DNA of 22,110 bases from a virus, in IMG/VR virus record IMGVR_UViG_3300031857_001559, positions 1-22,110 of that record; one strand, written 5' to 3'. A program made the translations under genes and the position numbers. Below the pieces are notes generated by a model. The model saw only the letters and a program-made list of their open reading frames with translations. It searched no databases and was not told the origin of the DNA. This document shows, one piece after another, positions 13,146 to 22,110 of the stretch (within the stretch, counting starts at the first letter, position 1; every line of letters begins with the position of its first letter).

Positions 13146-14348
13146 TTAAGCCTGAATCCGCTGGACGGAGAATGAGGAGTTAGCTCCGACTGTTCCGCCA
13201 GACCCAAAAGACGTAACAACAAGCTCGTAATAATCCCCGGCAATAGCTTGATCTATGTATTGAAGAAAAAACGGCCCAATCGCAACCGGAGAAATTGTTG
13301 CTGTTTCGCTTAACGGAAGAAGAGTTGTTGATCCGTTTTTTCTAATTGCAGCGTTGGCGTAACTGCCAGCAGCAGGTGTAAAAATAAATAAAGCGTCTAA
13401 CCTGTAGTATCCAGAGTAAGGAACGACAAACCTTCCGTTTACGGAATTGAATCCAGAGGCAGTGTCAATTCCGGTATAGTTTGTACTTGGATAATTTGTG
13501 CTGCTAAAAATGTTTTGATTCGCAGGTGATGGGTTAACATACGGAAGAGTTCCAGAGTCAACTCTCCGCGTAAACGTGACGTAGTTGAATGGAACAATCG
13601 AAGGCGCGGACAGCGTGATGTTTCCAGCCGAATTCGTCACAACAATCGGAGCTGTCCCAACGATTTCTTTCTGGAGATAGGTGGTTCCATCACCCACCGG
13701 AATCTTGTTCGCTGGAGCGGTTGTTAGATTCGTTCCACCCTTAGCAATCGGCAGCGTACCGCTGATGTCGCCAACTGGAACAGTCGCAACGGTCGAGACG
13801 ACGCCAGAACCGCCCGATCCGGCGGTCTTCATGTAACCGGCGGCAAGCGAATCGAGGGCTGTCTCGTTCGTCAGAGTTCCATCGGCTGTGCGGCAGATGT
13901 AAGAAGCTCCAACCGGCGCACCGCCAGACACACCGGCAGCACCCGTAGGCCCAATCGCACCAGCAAGCGTGATGAGCGAACCGGGAGGAATCAATGTAGT
14001 CGGAATCGCATTGGCAATGCCGAGAACACCAGGAGCAGGATTCTGCAAGGTCAGCAGCAAACCATCGACCGAGGTAACTTGCATGTACCCAAGACCTTGA
14101 ATCGAAACGAAGAACTGTCCGGCGACTGATTCAGGCAAAAACTCGGTGTTATCGACCGCAACCACAACCGACGCTCCGAGAGCAGGGACAAAAAATGCCG
14201 CAGTGGTGTAGGTGAACGAATCGATTCCGTTCGTGCCATTGGTGCCGTTTGTACCCGCTGCCCCTTGAGGACCAGGGATATTCACGACTACCGGCTCGGA
14301 GTCGCAAGGCTGGCAACAGCCGGATGAAGAAACAAGTTGCGACGGCAT
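13146..14348 (-). CDS. Collagen-like / C1q-like tail fiber
   Basis: A 400-residue fiber, first gene of the leftward block. The start at 14348 has AGGA five bases before the ATG, so the 12 extra residues of the longer reading are rejected. Order: Cys-rich head (CCQPC, 11-15), short collagen-like GPQGAAGTNGTNGTNG (26-41), a beta domain (about 45-130), a second short Gly-X-Y stretch (GPTGAAGVSGG, 133-143), fiber repeats including GDISGTLPIAKGGTN (193-207), and a C1q/TNF-like jelly roll (about 253-400; GRFVVPYSGYYRLDALFIF, 305-323, is the classical core). It would trimerise and bind a host surface. The C1q part is AT-richer (13381-13440: 22/60 GC) than the shaft (13801-13860: 39/60), suggesting a separately acquired tip. 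Confidence 0.78.
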   Translation of the reverse strand: MPSQLVSSSGCCQPCDSEPVVVNIPGPQGAAGTNGTNGTNGIDSFTYTTAAFFVPALGASVVVAVDNTEFLPESVAGQFFVSIQGLGYMQVTSVDGLLLTLQNPAPGVLGIANAIPTTLIPPGSLITLAGAIGPTGAAGVSGGAPVGASYICRTADGTLTNETALDSLAAGYMKTAGSGGSGVVSTVATVPVGDISGTLPIAKGGTNLTTAPANKIPVGDGTTYLQKEIVGTAPIVVTNSAGNITLSAPSIVPFNYVTFTRRVDSGTLPYVNPSPANQNIFSSTNYPSTNYTGIDTASGFNSVNGRFVVPYSGYYRLDALFIFTPAAGSYANAAIRKNGSTTLLPLSETATISPVAIGPFFLQYIDQAIAGDYYELVVTSFGSGGTVGANSSFSVQRIQA

Positions 14349-14402
14349 AATTTTCCTTTCGCAGAACCTCAAGTCCAACGACAACTAATGCAAGGCCAAA
14401 CT
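14349..14402. promoter_or_regulatory. Divergent intergenic region between fiber and terminase genes
   Basis: The only noncoding stretch of note (54 bases) between the leftward structural block and the rightward packaging block. It holds the ribosome sites of both (ttttccttt, 14351-14359, for the leftward fiber; aagg, 14392-14395, for the rightward terminase). Both blocks must get transcripts from here or from further inside the neighbouring genes. I see no convincing sigma-70 -35/-10 pair and no palindrome. Promoter placement is therefore inference from layout. Confidence 0.35.
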
Positions 14403-16082
14403 ATGGCAGAGCAAGTGTCTGAGAATCCATTGATCGACCACAAGTACGGAATACGCTCGCCCGTCAAGATTCCCGATCTTGAACTAGAGCTGTACGCTTT
14501 CCGAAATCGACTCCAACCAAACGAGGGTGGACTAGGCACTTTCGAACATTTTCAAAATGCGACGAAAATGCTCTGGCCGAAGATGAGTTGGAACCCGTGG
14601 TTAGAAGCTCAAGTCGAAAGCCTCTGTGAGCATAACTACGTTGGATGGGCGGGATGCGGAGCGAGCGGAAAGACCTTCGGCGCAACGCTTTTCGCGACAG
14701 TCTGGTGGTTGGCCAACCCTGCCAAGTCAACGGTTGTTCTGACATCGACGACCGCGAAGATGATCCGAAAGCGTATGTGGGCCAATCTTCAGGATCTTGT
14801 TCGGAAATCGCGAGGATTCCCCGGAAACATGGTCGATTCGAAGATGGCATTGCAGGCTGTCAAAGGTGACGACCGGCATTCAATTTCAGCTATCGCCGTC
14901 GCCGAAGGTAACACCTCGAAGGCAGTGGCCAACATTCAGGGTATTCACGCCGAGCGCGTGATGGTCATTATCGACGAAGCGACGGATACGCCCGAAGCAG
15001 CGTTCGAGGCTTGCACAAACCTCTCCAAAGGTTGCCGCGAGTTCAAGATGCTCGTCATTGGGAATCCGGCATCAAAGTTTGATCCGCACGGCAGATTCTG
15101 CACACCGGCAAAAGGGTGGCGCAGCGTCACGATTGAAGATCAGCATTGGCTGACTGAACGCGGCATGTGCCGACGCTTCGACGGCATGAAGTCGCCGAAC
15201 ATCACCGAGGGGCGAACGAAATACCCGTATCTCATCACCCAAGATCAGGTCTTGTCGGCAATGCGCCATGAGGGCGAGCAGAGTCCTACGTTCTGGAAGT
15301 ACACACGCGGATTCTGGAGTCCTGATGGCATGGTCAAGACGGTGCTGTCCGAATCGCTCATCGACACGCACACACCAAACAAGAAGCTCACTTTTACGAC
15401 CAACGTCCAGATTGTCGCGGCTCTCGACCCCGGCTTCGGAGGTGATAGATGTATCCTTCGATTTGCCAAAGTCGGCACCGCTAACGATAAGCTGAGCATC
15501 CTCTTTCAGGATATCATCCAGATATCGCCCAACGCTCAGCTCACCGAGCCAGTTCATTACCAGATAGCCAATCGAGTTAAAGAGGAATGCAACAAGCGCG
15601 GCGTTCCACCGGACAAGTTTGCTCTCGATTCAAGCGGTGAGGGTGGCGGTCTGGCGGACATTCTGACCAGAGAATGGGGTGTAGTTCACCGCGTCGAGTT
15701 CGGCGGCTCTCCATCAACCATTCCGGTCAGCGACGAGGACAGTAGGCCATGCAATGAGGCATACGACCGCAAGGTAACGGAACTCTGGTTCTCAATGCGT
15801 AAATGGGTTGTCGAGGAGCGGATTGGCGGCATGGACATCGAGACGTTGCAAGAGTTCTGTGCGCGAATGTTCGACGATGGGAAGCGGAAGATATCCGTCG
15901 AATCGAAGACTGTGATGAAACAAAGAACCGGCAAATCGCCTGACTTAGCCGACGCTGCTGTAGTCTTGCTTGATCTGGTGCGTAAAACCGCCTCCTTTGA
16001 ACCGCGAGCAACAAAGATGGACAAGGTATGGGAAAAGCTGGTGAGGGACGCAGACTCCATTTACTACGACGGGGACGTATGA
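14403..16082 (+). CDS. terL: Terminase large subunit
   Basis: A 559-residue packaging motor. ATPase: Walker A GCGASGKT (84-91), Walker B VMVIIDEA (186-193) with the catalytic Glu, and a coupling-type motif MLVIGNPAS (216-224). Nuclease: LDPGFGGDRC (341-350, Asp 342), ALDSSGEGGG (407-416, Asp 409) and SPDLADAAV (512-520, Asp 514 and 517), the RNase H-like metal triad that cuts concatemers. Length fits the family. The ATG at 14403 has AGG seven bases upstream; starts at 14337 and 14388 are open but weaker, and 14337 would overlap the divergent fiber gene. No small terminase gene precedes it in this block. Cys-rich protein and portal follow in the same operon. Confidence 0.93.
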   Translation: MAEQVSENPLIDHKYGIRSPVKIPDLELELYAFRNRLQPNEGGLGTFEHFQNATKMLWPKMSWNPWLEAQVESLCEHNYVGWAGCGASGKTFGATLFATVWWLANPAKSTVVLTSTTAKMIRKRMWANLQDLVRKSRGFPGNMVDSKMALQAVKGDDRHSISAIAVAEGNTSKAVANIQGIHAERVMVIIDEATDTPEAAFEACTNLSKGCREFKMLVIGNPASKFDPHGRFCTPAKGWRSVTIEDQHWLTERGMCRRFDGMKSPNITEGRTKYPYLITQDQVLSAMRHEGEQSPTFWKYTRGFWSPDGMVKTVLSESLIDTHTPNKKLTFTTNVQIVAALDPGFGGDRCILRFAKVGTANDKLSILFQDIIQISPNAQLTEPVHYQIANRVKEECNKRGVPPDKFALDSSGEGGGLADILTREWGVVHRVEFGGSPSTIPVSDEDSRPCNEAYDRKVTELWFSMRKWVVEERIGGMDIETLQEFCARMFDDGKRKISVESKTVMKQRTGKSPDLADAAVVLLDLVRKTASFEPRATKMDKVWEKLVRDADSIYYDGDV

Positions 16083-16699
16083 GCGGCTACAAGATCCTCA
16101 ATGAACACAATGTCATTCCTGGCGGATGGAACTACCGCGTTCCTGAAACCGGCATCGAGATACCGGCAGGTTCATTGCCGCAGCTCCGCGAGTTCGTTCG
16201 CAACCATTACGCGGCCAACGCGGTCAAGGTTCCAACCAACCTCGACATCTTAATCACCGAGTATCAGTGTCGTAACGGTGCTGACTGCTCTTACGACGAA
16301 GTTGAGATTCCTAGGCCGAAAGGTTTGAAATCTCTTCAAATCGGAGACGTTATCCGCTTCAGCATGAGCCTGATTCATGGGCTGACCGTTGGCGGCGGCA
16401 AGGTTGATCAGGCGGAAGCTGTTCGAAGGGCGAGCATTTGCGCCGGATGCCAATTCAATCGGAAGCCACTCGGATGCACCGGATGCAACGCTCGCGTCCT
16501 CAAAGAAGCTGTCAGGACACTTTCTCAACACGGAACAACACCACTAGACGACCAGCTTCAAAGCTGTGAATTTTGTGGTTGCTTCATTAGAAGCATGGTG
16601 TGGTTTCCCATTGAAACACTCCATAAATTTACGGACGCTACAGAGAACGCAAACTTGCCAGCTCACTGCTGGAAAAAACGACCATGTACGGAAACCTAG
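16079..16699 (+). CDS. Cys-rich protein between terminase and portal, unknown
   Basis: A 206-residue protein starting at an ATGA overlap with the terminase stop and running 16 bases into the portal gene. It has eleven Cys: C64, C70, C121-x2-C124, C133-x2-C136, C163-x2-C166-x-C168, C197 and C203. The paired CxxC motifs (CAGC, CTGC, CEFC) look like zinc ribbon or iron-sulfur ligands. The N-terminal half resembles neither a known packaging nor a known head protein to me (GGWNYRVPETGIEIPAGSLP, 15-34). Context places it in the packaging operon, so it may act in virion assembly, in packaging, or as a coexpressed regulator. Function is not known. Confidence 0.65.
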   Translation: MSGYKILNEHNVIPGGWNYRVPETGIEIPAGSLPQLREFVRNHYAANAVKVPTNLDILITEYQCRNGADCSYDEVEIPRPKGLKSLQIGDVIRFSMSLIHGLTVGGGKVDQAEAVRRASICAGCQFNRKPLGCTGCNARVLKEAVRTLSQHGTTPLDDQLQSCEFCGCFIRSMVWFPIETLHKFTDATENANLPAHCWKKRPCTET

Positions 16700-18933
16700 C
16701 CCAACTGCCGCTCGAAACCATTAACGAGGAGGGTAAAGCTCCCGAAACTCGTATTGCCGACGCGGCATCGGCTCGCGAGATATTCCAGAAGCTCATTATG
16801 GCCGACGAGCTGCGGAACAATACCCGCGCAAAGCTCCGTGGCCTTGTTGACGGCAATCCTCCGTACAACCCGTCAGAGCTTCGACGCAACAACCAAGCGT
16901 TCCGTACCAACGTCAACTTCCGCGAGTCGGAAGCGTTCCTCACGTTGGCCATGTCAGCCTTCTACGATGTGTTCGCCGAGGTTCCGACCTACGCCAACAT
17001 TCGCACCGCTTACGGCAACGACATGGATAAGCGGGAGGAGTGGTCGAAGATTATCACCGAGGAGTTCGACCGTCTCCAGAAGCTGGACAAGGACTTCGAC
17101 TACATCATGCAGCTCTCGCAGCGTGAGATGGTCCTTATTGGCAATGGTCCGCTAATCTTCGAAGACAGCTCCAACTGGCGATGCAAAGCCATCATGGCGA
17201 CGGACCTTCTCGTCCCCGATGGCACCAAGTCCAACGTCAGCGATTGGAAGGTGGCTTGCGTCCGCACTCGCATGGGTGTCGATGATCTGTTCGAGAAGAT
17301 CCAAGACGAGAAAGCTGCGACTGCTGCCGGTTGGAACGTGGACTACGTTCGCCAGCGTATCCGCGCTGCGATGCCCGAGCCGTACCGTTCCGGCGTTCAG
17401 TACGATTGGGAGTTCTTCCAACGTCAGCTCCGCTCGAACGACATCACGTTCTCCGCACGGTCAGAGGTCGTGCTGATGTCCCACATCTTCTACAAGGAGT
17501 TCGATGGCCAGATCAGCCATGCCATTATCGATGAGCGGGACAGCGAGAACTTCATGTATCGGAAGCTGCGCCGTTACAAGCGGTGGGAGCAGATCATTCA
17601 TCCGATGTATTACGACCGTGGTGATGGCGAGCATCACGGTGTGAAGGGTCTTGGCATCAAGATGCTTCAGGCGATGGAGCTGAAGAACCGGCTTCGCTGC
17701 TCGATGGTGGACAGCGCATTCGCTCGCACCCAGATCCTCTTCCGTCCCCTCAACCCGAACGCTCTCAGCAAGACCAGCGTCGTTCAGCAAGGACCGTATG
17801 CCATTCTCCCGCCAGACTACGAAGTCATTCAGCAGAACATTGCTGGCGTTCTGGACGCTCCTATGGCGGTCAACGCGGACCTTGAGAATGTTCTTCAGGG
17901 CAATCTCTCTCAGTATCGCCAATCGCTCAACAAACCGGCTGGCAACCCACGAACTGCGACTGAAATCCAAGCCATCGTGGCACAGCAGTCAGCAATCGGT
18001 AAGACGCAGCTCAGCCGGTATTACAACCAGCTCGATTCCTTCTTCGAAGAGCGGTACAACCGAGCCTCCAATCCCAACCTGAATCCGATTACCAAGTCGG
18101 ACAAGGACGCGATTGAGTTCCAGCGTCGTTGCGCCGAACGTGGTGTTCCGGTTCAAGCCATGCTGGACATCGACTTCGTGGAAGCGACTCGCACGGTCGG
18201 CCAAGGTTCTCAGTTTGCGAAACAGCAGCTCCTCGGCTCTCTGCTTGGACTTCTCGGTTCTCTGCCAGAGGGGGGCAAAGTCAGCCTCTTGCGCGACTAC
18301 ATCGCCGCTCAGGTTGGCCAACAAATGGTGGATCGGTATCTGCCGACCCAGATCCAATCTTCACGAATTCAGGATCAGACCGCGCTGGCCGTTCTGGAGC
18401 ATTCGTCCTTGCGCCAGGGTAACATGGCAATCGTCACGGACACGCAGAACCAAATCGTTCACATCGACACGCATCTTGCGGCGGCGAACGAGGCGGCTTC
18501 CTCGATTCAGCAGGGAGGCAATCCGCAGGAGATTATGCTCTTCCTGCAAGGTATCGGTCAGCACGTTCAGGATCATCTGGCTCGTCTCTCCACCGATCCT
18601 ACTCGTCGTCCTCAAGTTGATGCTTACGCGCAGCAGCTCCAGATGCTTGTCCAGACCGTTGAGCAGCTTGGTCAGCTATTGGCCGAACAGCAGCAGGCAA
18701 TGGCGCAGCAACAGCAGGCGATGGCCATCCAGCAGGGTGTCGATCCGAAGACTGCGGTGATGAATGCGGAGGTTCAGGCGAAAATCGCTCGCCAGAATGC
18801 CGAGACTATGGCCAACATTCAGCGTCAGAACACGAAGGCGATGGCCGACTTGGCTCGCCGGAATGCCAAGACAACCGCTGATATTCAGCGAGCGAATGCA
18901 ACTGCCGAGTCCAACTTGGCGCGTCAGGGATGA
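16684..18933 (+). CDS. Portal protein
   Basis: A 749-residue protein, the size and position (two genes after the large terminase) of podovirus portals. It forms the ring through which DNA enters and leaves the head. The N-terminal half is mixed alpha/beta with many Arg and Trp (FYKEFDGQISHAIIDERDSE). A GNPRTATEI motif (420-428) matches the TATE-type helix typical of podoviral portals. The C-terminal 170 residues are helical: a Gln/Met tract (668-685) and four and a half 11-residue repeats with Arg and Asn at fixed positions (699-749, AxIxRQNAxTM type), predicting a long right-handed coiled coil or crown. The start lies in a 16-base overlap with the upstream gene; GGAAAA stands about eight bases before it. 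Confidence 0.85.
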   Translation: MYGNLAQLPLETINEEGKAPETRIADAASAREIFQKLIMADELRNNTRAKLRGLVDGNPPYNPSELRRNNQAFRTNVNFRESEAFLTLAMSAFYDVFAEVPTYANIRTAYGNDMDKREEWSKIITEEFDRLQKLDKDFDYIMQLSQREMVLIGNGPLIFEDSSNWRCKAIMATDLLVPDGTKSNVSDWKVACVRTRMGVDDLFEKIQDEKAATAAGWNVDYVRQRIRAAMPEPYRSGVQYDWEFFQRQLRSNDITFSARSEVVLMSHIFYKEFDGQISHAIIDERDSENFMYRKLRRYKRWEQIIHPMYYDRGDGEHHGVKGLGIKMLQAMELKNRLRCSMVDSAFARTQILFRPLNPNALSKTSVVQQGPYAILPPDYEVIQQNIAGVLDAPMAVNADLENVLQGNLSQYRQSLNKPAGNPRTATEIQAIVAQQSAIGKTQLSRYYNQLDSFFEERYNRASNPNLNPITKSDKDAIEFQRRCAERGVPVQAMLDIDFVEATRTVGQGSQFAKQQLLGSLLGLLGSLPEGGKVSLLRDYIAAQVGQQMVDRYLPTQIQSSRIQDQTALAVLEHSSLRQGNMAIVTDTQNQIVHIDTHLAAANEAASSIQQGGNPQEIMLFLQGIGQHVQDHLARLSTDPTRRPQVDAYAQQLQMLVQTVEQLGQLLAEQQQAMAQQQQAMAIQQGVDPKTAVMNAEVQAKIARQNAETMANIQRQNTKAMADLARRNAKTTADIQRANATAESNLARQG
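18778..18930 (+). repeat. 11-residue repeats at portal C-terminus
   Basis: The last 51 codons of the portal gene encode four full and one partial copy of an 11-residue unit: AKIARQNAETM, ANIQRQNTKAM, ADLARRNAKTT, ADIQRANATAE, SNLARQG. Ala at position 1, an aliphatic residue at 3, Arg at 5 and Asn at 7 are kept; the period is that of a hendecad coiled coil. Confidence 0.85.
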
Positions 18934-18938
18934 GAATT

Positions 18939-19556
18939 ATGGGAAACGAAGAAAACATCGTTCAATTCATCGCCGACAACTTCCCTAAGATGGGCGGTTG
19001 GTGCGATCCGAAAAAAGGTTTAGAAATCGCCAAACTTGTTCTCGAAACGAAACCTCAACGCATCGCTGAAGTTGGTGTTTTCGAGGGCAAGTCCACGCTC
19101 GCACTCGCACAAGCCTGCAAGCTGAACGGAAGCGGAACCGTCTACGCTATCGATTCTTGGAAGAAAGAGGACTGCATCGACGATGAAACGAATGCCAATC
19201 AGGAATGGTGGGCGACACTCGATCTGAACAAGCATTACGAATCTTTCGTTGGTCATTGCGTTCGCGCGCAGGTCGTAAAGCAGATTCAGTTCTGCCGCAT
19301 GTCCTCATGGGATGCGTCGCGATTCCTGCCGGACATGGACATGGTTCATATCGACGCCAATCACGCCGAATGGCCGTCTACGAGCGATGTCGTCAACTGG
19401 CTTCCAAAGCTCAAGGTTGGCGGATATCTGGTCATGGACGATGTGAATTGGGAATCGACCCAGACCGCTCTCAAGTTTGTCCTGAAACGCTGCGAATTTG
19501 TTTCGCGATTTGATCTGAGCGAGAGCGTTTTTGCTATCTATCGAAAACTGAAATAA
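18939..19556 (+). CDS. Class I SAM-dependent methyltransferase
   Basis: A 205-residue methyltransferase of the Methyltransf_24 type. Motif I is IAEVGVFEGKSTLALA (42-57, SAM-binding glycine loop), motif II the acidic strand end VYAIDSW (68-74), then MVHIDANH (135-142) and GGYLVMDDVNW (161-171). Such enzymes methylate sugars or other small groups in surface polysaccharide and antibiotic clusters. The start at 18939 has AGGGA eight bases upstream; a start at 18930 overlapping the portal stop (ATGA) is possible and would add three residues. It is the first gene of a sugar-type cassette and is coupled to the portal gene. The substrate cannot be read from the sequence. Confidence 0.78.
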   Translation: MGNEENIVQFIADNFPKMGGWCDPKKGLEIAKLVLETKPQRIAEVGVFEGKSTLALAQACKLNGSGTVYAIDSWKKEDCIDDETNANQEWWATLDLNKHYESFVGHCVRAQVVKQIQFCRMSSWDASRFLPDMDMVHIDANHAEWPSTSDVVNWLPKLKVGGYLVMDDVNWESTQTALKFVLKRCEFVSRFDLSESVFAIYRKLK

Positions 19557-19560
19557 CCCC

Positions 19561-20163
19561 GTGCAAACGGTCGTTATCACGATGCGAGGCAGCTCTCGCA
19601 TTCCGCGCCTACAAAGAAACCTTGATTCCGCTGGAGTCACGGACTACCGCATTTTCTATGGCCTGAACGGCGCGAAGTCTGGACTGAAAGCGAGCATTCC
19701 GTACGAGATAGATGACCCCGGCTCAGGCTATCTCATCTGCTCTAAGCACGTTGGATGCAGTATGTCCCATTGGATGCTATGGAACGCGCTGGATTTCGAT
19801 CCTTCCACACCGGACATGGTGATGGTTCTAGAGGATGACATCCTCTTCCGTCCGCATTGGCGCGAAACAATCGAACGTGCGCTGACAAAACTGCCAGAGG
19901 ATTGGGACATCCTCTATCCTGGCTCTTGTTGCGCGCACGGGAAGCTCTCGCGCGAGCTGGATTCAAACCTATTCGAAGGGATGCCGCTTTGCACTCACTG
20001 CTACATTGTCCGCAAGAAGGCTCTCAAGACTCTTATCGAGACGAACGAAGAGGTCTTCGCTCCAATCGATTTGCAGATGTACTTTAAGAGCCGACAGCAT
20101 CTGAAATGCTTCACAATTTTCCCGCGAGTTGCCGATCAAGAAGACTGTCCTTTGGCCGACTAA
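19561..20163 (+). CDS. Glycosyltransferase family 25 (LPS-type), copy 1
   Basis: A 200-residue protein starting at GTG; an in-frame stop lies twelve bases upstream, and the next ATG (19582) would cut the first beta strand (TVVITM). Family signature: CSMSHWMLWNAL (66-77), VMVLEDDILF (87-96, the metal/nucleotide-sugar acidic motif), DWDILYPGSCC (114-124), CTHCYIVRKKALKTL (144-158) and FAPIDLQM (166-173). GT25 enzymes move galactose or glucose onto LPS core or glycoproteins. It is shorter than typical bacterial LPS enzymes (about 250 residues) but has all main motifs. Lies between two methyltransferases and is related to the second GT25 copy downstream. Confidence 0.82.
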   Translation: MQTVVITMRGSSRIPRLQRNLDSAGVTDYRIFYGLNGAKSGLKASIPYEIDDPGSGYLICSKHVGCSMSHWMLWNALDFDPSTPDMVMVLEDDILFRPHWRETIERALTKLPEDWDILYPGSCCAHGKLSRELDSNLFEGMPLCTHCYIVRKKALKTLIETNEEVFAPIDLQMYFKSRQHLKCFTIFPRVADQEDCPLAD

Positions 20164-20167
20164 AATT

Positions 20168-20758
20168 ATGGGTTCACCTTTCAATGGAGACACGTTCATC
20201 GAGCAGGAGTTTCTCTACCTCAAAGAACGCTTCGAGCTGACGACCGCCGTCGAAACCGGCACTCACGAAGCGGACACTACCGTTTGGTTGGCCAAGAACT
20301 TCCTCAAGACCGTTTCATGCGAGCTGAACCATGATCTGGTTGAGAGGGCTAAGGAGAAGTTTAAGCGCGAGAATGTCTACGTTGAGATGTTCGAAGGCAG
20401 TAGCGATGCCTGCATGAACTGGTTCATTCCGCATCACGGAATTGGACACGACACGATCTTCTTTCTCGACGCCCACTGGAACGACTACCTGCCGCTGCTT
20501 GAAGAGCTTGAGGCAATCAATCGCTACGACCTACATCCGGTCATCGCCATCCACGACTTCAAGGAACCGACCGGACAGCTCGGGTACGACAGCTACAACG
20601 GCCACGACATCTGCCTCGGCTACATCAAGGAGAAGCTGGACGCGATTTACCGTGCCAAGACGCTGACGCAGAAGTACGGCTACAGCTTCTACTACAACCA
20701 CCCTAGCCGATGCGTAGGCGCGCGTCGCGGCATCATCTACATCCTCCCGAACCGATGA
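20168..20758 (+). CDS. SAM methyltransferase-like protein
   Basis: A 196-residue Rossmann-type protein. The first motif is AVETGTHEADTTVWLA (27-42), a common variant of the SAM glycine loop; then VSCELNHDLVERAKEKF (49-65) with the acidic residue after beta 2, IFFLDAHWNDYLPLLEEL (97-114) and VIAIHDFK (125-132). The FLDAHW motif is typical of small methyltransferases in surface-polysaccharide and phage glycan clusters. The upstream frame is open to 20129, but that would overlap the GT25 gene by 35 bases. The start chosen is in an AAAATTATGGG context like that of the first methyltransferase. Cys and Tyr are frequent near the C-terminus. Confidence 0.68.
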   Translation: MGSPFNGDTFIEQEFLYLKERFELTTAVETGTHEADTTVWLAKNFLKTVSCELNHDLVERAKEKFKRENVYVEMFEGSSDACMNWFIPHHGIGHDTIFFLDAHWNDYLPLLEELEAINRYDLHPVIAIHDFKEPTGQLGYDSYNGHDICLGYIKEKLDAIYRAKTLTQKYGYSFYYNHPSRCVGARRGIIYILPNR

Positions 20759-21384
20759 AACTACAGCTCGAAAAGACGCCGTGCTTCATCATCTCGAAGC
20801 CTGAGAGTGAGAAGGAGCGACGCTGCATACGCTACATGAAGTCATTCGGAATCGATGCGGTTCCGATGTACGGATTCAGGGCTGAGAACTGCGGCATATC
20901 GACCGACTACTACCACACACGCGAGAAGGAGAAGGCGAAAGTCAAAACAATCGTCGCCGGACTGAGCCATTTCTCTGTCTGGTCGGCCATCAAGTGGATG
21001 GTTGAGTCGAAGATAACCGATCATCGGACATTCCTTATCGTTGAGGATGACGTTGAGTTCACATGCTCCGATTGGAAGGCTAAGCTGGCCGACAATCTGG
21101 ACTATCTCCCGAGCGATTGGCATGTCGTCTACATCGGAAGCTGCTGCGCTGACCCGATTGAAGACCACAGCTACATCGCGTCGAACCTTTACAAGCTGGT
21201 CCGAGGCATGTGTACGCATGCTTACCTTGTAAATTACGAAGGTGTCTGCAAACTCCTCGAAACGAACCAGAAGGTTTGGGGTCCAATCGACATCCAGATG
21301 CTGGTCGATTCGATGCCTAGGATGAACTTTTACGGGATTCTTCCGAGGCTTGCGACGCAGGAGAACACAAAATTGTATCCATAA
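20755..21384 (+). CDS. Glycosyltransferase family 25-like, copy 2
   Basis: A 209-residue protein starting at an ATGA overlap with the preceding stop. It shares the first copy's motif order: AGLSHFSVWSAIKWM (68-82), FLIVEDDVEF (93-102), DWHVVYIGSCCADP (121-134), CTHAYLVNYEGVCKLLETNQ (153-172) and WGPIDIQM (175-182), ending in LPRLATQEN where copy 1 has FPRVADQED. The two are diverged tandem paralogs in the same cassette, which suggests two successive sugar additions. The strand order is the same, but the first 60 residues are quite different (FGIDAVPMYGFRAEN), so acceptor binding may differ. Confidence 0.8.
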   Translation: MKLQLEKTPCFIISKPESEKERRCIRYMKSFGIDAVPMYGFRAENCGISTDYYHTREKEKAKVKTIVAGLSHFSVWSAIKWMVESKITDHRTFLIVEDDVEFTCSDWKAKLADNLDYLPSDWHVVYIGSCCADPIEDHSYIASNLYKLVRGMCTHAYLVNYEGVCKLLETNQKVWGPIDIQMLVDSMPRMNFYGILPRLATQENTKLYP

Positions 21385-22110
21385 TGAAAGACATCATCCG
21401 AAGTCTGTCTCTTAAAGCTCTCAAGCGATTCGCAAATGGCGGTGATGGTCAGGCCGATTTGCTGATGCAGATCGAGGATTTGCAGAAGACGCTTGAGATT
21501 CGAACCAAAGAACATGACGAGCATCTGACCGAGGTCCGCGAGGAGCGCGATCATTGGCTTGCTCTCTACGACGAAATCAAATTCGCAGCCGAGTTTCTAA
21601 TGAGCTACGCAAAAAACGACGTACCCAAGCTGGCCGAACAATGCGACTGGGAGGTTGGCAAAATCACGCTTCCTGAGGAGGTTGGAACCTACTACTTCAA
21701 CCCCGCAATCGTTCAGGAGCCAAGCGGTCAGATCCTTCTTTTCGCCCGACGCTGCCGCAACAAGCGCGAGAAGGATGAGGACGTTTACCTTGAGAAGAAC
21801 GACATCGTTGTCTTCGAGCTGACCAAGGATCTTGGAGCCATCAAGAAGGCGTTGATCAACCTCACCTCGCACATGCCGGGTGAGCAGTTCGAAGATCCGC
21901 GAGTGGTCAAGTTTGGCGACAAATACGGACTAAGCTGCTGCACGTTTGTACCGTTCAAGAGCTACGCGCATCAGGCGATGTTTGTCTTGGACAAGCAGTT
22001 CCTGAACGTCGCCCGATTCGATCCGATCTACGGCAACAACTACGCCCAGGCGATGGTGAACGATGGCCATGAGAAGAACTGGCTCTACTTCGTCCACGAT
22101 AACACGCCAC
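21384..22110 (+). CDS. GH130/GH43-like beta-propeller protein, 3' truncated
   Basis: An open frame that starts in a TAATG overlap with the GT25 stop and runs off the window; 242 residues are visible. Residues about 25-60 are charged helix (DLLMQIEDLQKTLEI), likely coiled coil. From about 100 a five-blade propeller pattern of the GH130/GH43/GH32 superfamily begins: YFNPAIVQEPSGQILLFARR (104-123), GEQFEDPRVVKFGDKYGLSC (166-185) and GHEKNWLYFVHDN (228-240). The EDPR and KNW motifs are those of GH130 mannoside phosphorylases. It could process or bind a sugar polymer, or be a truncated or inactive relative. The catalytic Asp of GH130 cannot be checked because most of the fold is missing. Confidence 0.6.
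   Translation, partial: MKDIIRSLSLKALKRFANGGDGQADLLMQIEDLQKTLEIRTKEHDEHLTEVREERDHWLALYDEIKFAAEFLMSYAKNDVPKLAEQCDWEVGKITLPEEVGTYYFNPAIVQEPSGQILLFARRCRNKREKDEDVYLEKNDIVVFELTKDLGAIKKALINLTSHMPGEQFEDPRVVKFGDKYGLSCCTFVPFKSYAHQAMFVLDKQFLNVARFDPIYGNNYAQAMVNDGHEKNWLYFVHDNTP

Follow-up and report, generated by a model that had tools for sequence, protein, structure and literature searches.

A swappable set of glycosyltransferase and methyltransferase genes behind the portal gene of an uncultured phage clade, with a probable role in virion glycosylation

Virion glycosylation by phage-encoded enzymes has been documented, in the literature that we found, mainly in a few mycobacteriophages. In Corndog, a cluster O phage, an O-methyltransferase, two glycosyltransferases and a putative N-acetylglucosaminyltransferase are encoded between portal and protease, and all four enzymes were detected in infected cells and were not seen in virions (PMC4351075). 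Two later papers, both citing Freeman et al. 2023, report glycosylation of the capsid and tail-tube proteins of cluster O phages, with Corndog gp38 as an essential factor for that of the capsid (PMC12363180, PMC11600133). Here we analyse 22,110 bases of viral DNA (IMG/VR record IMGVR_UViG_3300031857_001559, positions 1 to 22,110), hereafter the window, in which five sugar-related genes stand directly behind a putative portal gene: the methyltransferases MT24a and MTdahw, the family 25 glycosyltransferases GT25a and GT25b, and a GH130-like propeller. We consider it probable, with clear reservations, that the genes ahead of the propeller form a cytosolic cassette for glycosylation of virion proteins, whose type is switched by homologous exchange.

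The slot is the same as that of Corndog gp35–gp38 and Firecracker gp33–gp36, between portal and head-maturation genes, and the window, like cluster O, has an O-methyltransferase and at least two glycosyltransferases in it. On the Firecracker map the order is portal, O-methyltransferase, glycosyltransferases and protease, with a four-base overlap between portal stop and O-methyltransferase; in the window MT24a abuts the portal gene with its ATG at 18939, or overlaps the portal stop through an alternative ATG at 18930. Firecracker gp33 is a TylF/Methyltransf_24 protein, and gp36 is a GT25 protein (24.5 bits against a cut-off of 24.0) that aligns with our GT25 family at an hhalign probability of 95% (E=3e-8); its equivalence to Corndog gp38 is by position and length and not by direct comparison with Corndog. 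GT25 and Glyco_transf_7C-type glycosyltransferases occur in both Firecracker and this clade, and a pairwise comparison of the latter type (GT7C) with Firecracker gp35 was negative, though both match Glyco_transf_7C, gp35 weakly. In cluster O the cassette is followed by a protease, whereas here a propeller, absent from Firecracker, and a scaffold-like gene follow. Unlike cluster O, the clade has a portal without detectable match in cultured phages, and its close relatives exchange gene content. The first-pass annotation had proposed that genes in the head operon build and methylate a glycan, and had favoured virion decoration, and the shared slot in cluster O phages speaks for both points.

Searches with the portal found 168 relatives in viral contigs, including at least 80 close ones, and no detectable relative among 50,697 cultured phages. 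Cultured-phage searches with both methyltransferases and the propeller fragment gave no matches, the full-length propeller gave one marginal match and GT25a three remote ones; further viral scans with MT24 and GT7C recovered essentially the same clade. The genes recur in many related viral contigs with conserved lengths and intact frames, far beyond chance. For comparison we took all 78 distinct portal-to-propeller intervals, window included, with homology-guided gene calls. The propeller stands directly after the cassette in every one of them, and none lacks a GT25 or a methyltransferase, some cassettes having a single glycosyltransferase. The cassette genes belong to nine enzyme families (three GT25 groups, the sugar-binding DXD glycosyltransferase GTsug, a Glyco_transf_7C-type glycosyltransferase and four methyltransferase groups) and form nine arrangements. 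The length of the slot from portal to propeller ranges from 1,236 to 3,054 bp (standard deviation 323), while spacing outside it is nearly constant, with standard deviations of 6 bp from terminase to portal and 4 bp from propeller to scaffold-like gene.

These data change the picture given by the first-pass annotation, which described five consecutive coupled genes. That description is true of the window, where all five open reading frames (ORFs) were found tightly packed on one strand directly 3′ of the portal gene, with MTdahw and GT25b overlapping as ATGA. Among relatives, however, the arrangement of the window is one of nine (30 of 78 intervals), and only the fifth gene, the propeller, is constant. 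A fixed five-gene pathway was therefore rejected: the five genes are not conserved together in related phages, an outcome that the annotation itself had named as refuting, and four are exchangeable beside a fixed neighbour. Since every alternative cassette consists again of glycosyltransferases and methyltransferases, the glycan reading is strengthened.

Exchange is recurrent, and the cassette swaps cleanly at both neighbouring gene boundaries. A tree built from 75 portal genes requires at least 27 changes of arrangement, where the least possible number is 8. The window and its relative L002 are ~97% identical up to the portal stop and 96.6% identical in the propeller; in L002 one Glyco_transf_7C gene replaces MT24a and GT25a, and MTdahw and GT25b are only ~70% identical to those of the window. 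L014 and L016 share 99.95% identity along 12,248 bases, up to a point no more than 2 bases from the portal stop, and then diverge. Breaks were located in the 30 closest pairs that differ in arrangement; rows recur between these pairs, which are therefore not independent. Relative to the portal stop, the left break falls at -4 to +7 bp, except in one pair whose two cassettes open with the same two genes; relative to the propeller start, the right break falls at -16 to 0 bp. Individual cases, and L016 in particular, might be chimeric assemblies, but recurrence of the exchange across many samples argues against chimeras as the general cause. The relative G001 (L223-L225) has homologues of a RecT-like annealing protein, an exonuclease VIII-like nuclease, a single-stranded DNA-binding protein and a helicase, and the pair of RecT and exonuclease VIII is a plausible engine of cassette exchange.

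The family calls of the first-pass annotation (two GT25 enzymes, two class I O-methyltransferases and a GH130-like propeller) were mostly right. GT25a scores 40.3 bits with Pfam PF01755 against a curated cut-off of 24. GT25b alone stays below that cut-off (18.8 against 24 bits), but it joins the GT25 alignment A3, and the family profile matches solved GT25 enzymes at ~1e-14, the best being mimivirus R655 (1e-14) and human procollagen galactosyltransferase 1 (4e-14). Its ORF can also start at ATG 20710. The acidic metal-binding motif EDD is kept in 111 of 111 GT25 members (57/57 GT25a, 43/43 GT25b), and the phage enzymes have it, together with the GT25 domain, in common with procollagen galactosyltransferase 1 and mimivirus R655. 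The own activity of R655 is untested in PMC9546862.

Both methyltransferases have the fold or motifs of S-adenosylmethionine (SAM) binding. The MT24a profile matches the sugar O-methyltransferase NovP and 6g7d, and HIDANHAEW and MDDxNW, motifs resembling SAM and metal sites, occur in all 58 members; MT24a also matches PHROG 2675, which is labelled DNA methyltransferase. MTdahw, whose ORF can also start at TTG 20129, gave on its own only a weak family match (E=0.03). The AlphaFold2 (AF2) model of its family is confident (predicted local distance difference test, pLDDT, 88.6), a Foldseek search with this model found NovO/COMT-like enzymes at E ~1e-8, and the LDAHW motif is present in 43 of 43 members. 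By family profile and predicted structure, through which alone it is recognisable, MTdahw is thus a class I O-methyltransferase. A scan of a genome collection with MTdahw gave two cellular relatives only, both beside glycan genes and one of them in a sugar-nucleotide/polysaccharide cluster, and it pointed to no host. The closest cellular relative is in a metagenome-assembled genome of Mucilaginibacter (L271:6632-8618), where it directly follows a protein that looks GT25-like by eye; the same neighbourhood has an FkbM-like methyltransferase and an ABC transporter for peptide export.

The cassette families keep their catalytic motifs and lengths, and their median ratios of nonsynonymous to synonymous substitution (dN/dS) are 0.047-0.083, compared with 0.060 for the portal and 0.082 for the propeller. 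No membrane span is evident in any cassette family or in the propeller, where the highest 19-residue hydropathy is 0.97-1.75. Motifs, low dN/dS and lack of an evident membrane span together indicate enzymes selected for function, which probably work in the cytosol.

The propeller of the window is a fragment of 242 of ~447 amino acids (aa), and alone it stays under the GH130 cut-off (E=0.11, 11.8 bits). A full-length relative (L007:14701-16044) passes Pfam GH130 (PF04041) with 36.7 bits against a cut-off of 26, and the propeller profile matches PDB 5b0p at 8e-6. The GH130-type EDPR motif is invariant, and basic positions cannot be placed surely in the weak 5b0p alignment. The phage propeller shares the Pfam match and EDPR with GH130 mannoside phosphorylases and the dual transferase-phosphorylases of GT108, and differs from them by a long N-terminal coiled coil and by scores far below the NCBIfam cut-offs for named phosphorylases. 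An AF2 model from 15 close relatives was unusable (pLDDT 37.9). GT108 shares GH130 fold and mechanism, and GH130-fold proteins include transferases, phosphorylases and hydrolases (PMC8950772). Hence trimming of the glycan, as the first-pass annotation had it, is only one possibility for this protein and amounts to a guess. Constancy of the propeller beside a varying cassette suggests that its target is a part common to all the glycans, unless it is no enzyme of this pathway.

According to our preferred explanation, late in infection and in the cytosol the two GT25 enzymes would put sugars derived from host nucleotide sugars on a phage structural protein of capsid, tail or fibre, and the two O-methyltransferases would cap the added sugars with methyl groups. 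The constant GH130-like propeller would act on, or add to, the common part of the glycan, and phages of the clade with another set in the slot would carry a different sugar coat. The sets would be swapped by homologous recombination in the conserved flanking genes for portal and propeller, probably with the phage's own RecT/exonuclease VIII pair. The collagen-like fibre encoded close by is a candidate acceptor; its conserved N-terminal part GPQGAAGTNGTNGTNGID is followed by a remainder that is a second variable spot between close relatives. Procollagen galactosyltransferase 1 is a protein glycosyltransferase. The phage fibre has no lysine in its Gly-X-Y triplets, and no lysyl hydroxylase was seen. 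Several points weigh against this explanation. Position in the head operon is no proof of a virion target. No enzyme was recognised that would attach the first sugar to the protein. The intervals were selected for having both portal and propeller, and the contigs are metagenome assemblies. Moreover, no convincing profile alignment was obtained between Firecracker gp33 and the methyltransferases of this clade, so that we claim likeness of family and position, and neither close kinship nor a common recent origin.

The cassette might instead act late in infection on the host surface, remodelling lipopolysaccharide (LPS) or capsule so that superinfection, or re-adsorption of progeny to debris, is blocked, with variation following host surface types. 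LPS enzymes do occur within GT25, both cellular relatives of MTdahw adjoin glycan genes, and the neighbouring fibre gene varies between close relatives too. Gtr-type serotype conversion cassettes are carried by temperate phages and differ in glycosyltransferase content between relatives. Like these, the cassettes here are variable phage-borne glycosyltransferase sets, but they are located in the head operon and have no flippase or bactoprenol glycosyltransferase: by hydropathy of the cassette families and propeller, the Gtr combination of membrane flippase and lipid-carrier glycosyltransferase was not found. This result, together with a same-slot precedent that acts on virion proteins, makes alteration of the host envelope, which the first-pass annotation had kept beside virion decoration, less likely, and we regard it as improbable. 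Still far less credible is modification of phage DNA with glycosylated and methylated bases against restriction. Base glycosylation by phages is known, for example from Shewanella phage Thanatos (PMC12838424); the PHROG 2675 label of MT24a would also agree with it. However, no base-synthesis enzyme was found among ~25 scanned proteins of the window and G001, a set that does not cover every ORF. In addition, fold and motifs of the methyltransferases are those of small-molecule or sugar O-methyltransferases, and the acceptors known for GT25 are proteins and saccharides.

Another account concerns only the propeller, which could serve in head structure or assembly and have a GH130 fold that has degenerated, so that only the variable genes encode enzymes; it is compatible with virion glycosylation by the other four genes. 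Universality of the propeller beside a varying cassette, its coiled coil and charged tail, and its constant distance of 272-284 bp to the scaffold-like gene are in favour of this account. Invariance of the GH130-type EDPR motif argues against it, and PHROG 28262, whose N-terminal part matches GTsug and whose C-terminal part matches the propeller, suggests a functional link between the two, although the scores are weak. On balance we find a purely structural propeller rather unlikely.

If virion glycosylation with cassette exchange is the right explanation, the slot may, as a more tentative extension, be a 'glycotype' locus, in which complete glycan-synthesis sets are swapped at a fixed address, as in O-antigen loci of bacteria. 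Near-identical phages would then differ in virion surface chemistry, and the diversity would be selected by recognisers of virions, such as host surface lectins, capsid-sensing defences, grazers and competing phages. The observation of the first-pass annotation is confirmed and its interpretation partly supported. The system would be of a known kind, virion glycosylation encoded next to the portal, and is special in that the clade is uncultured, that a GH130-like protein is the partner and that cassettes are exchanged between sharp boundaries. It would extend virion glycosylation, in the same genomic slot, to an uncultured lineage for which no cultured relative was found, with glycan type exchanged as a unit between near-identical phages. 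This would make testable what virion glycans do outside the animal immune system, and the clade provides natural, ready-made combinations of these enzymes that can be compared.

Table 1. Genes of the cassette and of its surroundings in the window
Feature	Position	Strand	Remarks
Collagen-like tail fibre (GPQGAAGTNGTNGTNGID), candidate acceptor	13146..14384	-	~six Gly-X-Y triplets in most related loci
Terminase large subunit	14337..16082	+	PHROG 2, E=1.8e-22; start of head/packaging operon; TTG start uncertain
Conserved 223-aa protein with cysteine pairs, no assigned function	16028..16699	+	Homologues in related loci
Portal protein, left border of cassette slot	16684..18933	+	Assigned by position and size; no profile match
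MT24a, sugar-type O-methyltransferase	18939..19556	+	Methyltransf_24, E=9e-20
GT25a, glycosyltransferase family 25	19561..20163	+	Glyco_transf_25, E=4e-10; GTG start
MTdahw, class I O-methyltransferase with LDAHW motif	20168..20758	+	COMT family by profile, 3e-4
GT25b, second glycosyltransferase family 25	20755..21384	+	PHROG 2835 glucosyltransferase, 3e-7
GH130-like propeller, N-terminal coiled coil	21384..22110	+	Truncated by contig end; right border of slot

The head operon of the window is on the plus strand and runs from the terminase large subunit through the 223-aa protein and the putative portal of 749 aa to the five sugar-related genes (Table 1), of which genes 1-4 are complete and the propeller gene is cut by the contig end. 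A scan for promoters and terminators gave no signal above chance. The terminase has homologous ORFs in related loci (175 in all), and Pfam and PHROG scans of the portal gave nothing above noise. In relatives, a gene of 107-110 aa and the scaffold-like gene lie behind cassette and propeller. A likely major capsid gene of ~412-416 aa follows a few kb past the scaffold-like gene on the opposite strand (L223:6762-8012 (+)); its product has no Pfam or PHROG match. By eye, HNH-endonuclease-like ORFs adjoin the capsid gene in some relatives (L007:21753-22247 (-); G007 19975-20640 (-)).

Related genomes have lengths of 41-48 kb, and one has a direct end repeat of 127 bp. Two contigs of about twice that usual length, L019/L310 (92,531 bp) and L333 (95,212 bp), also carry the locus and may be hybrids or concatemers made in assembly. 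In L021-L024, another ORF (~241 aa) has a much longer Gly-X-Y run than the collagen-like fibre.

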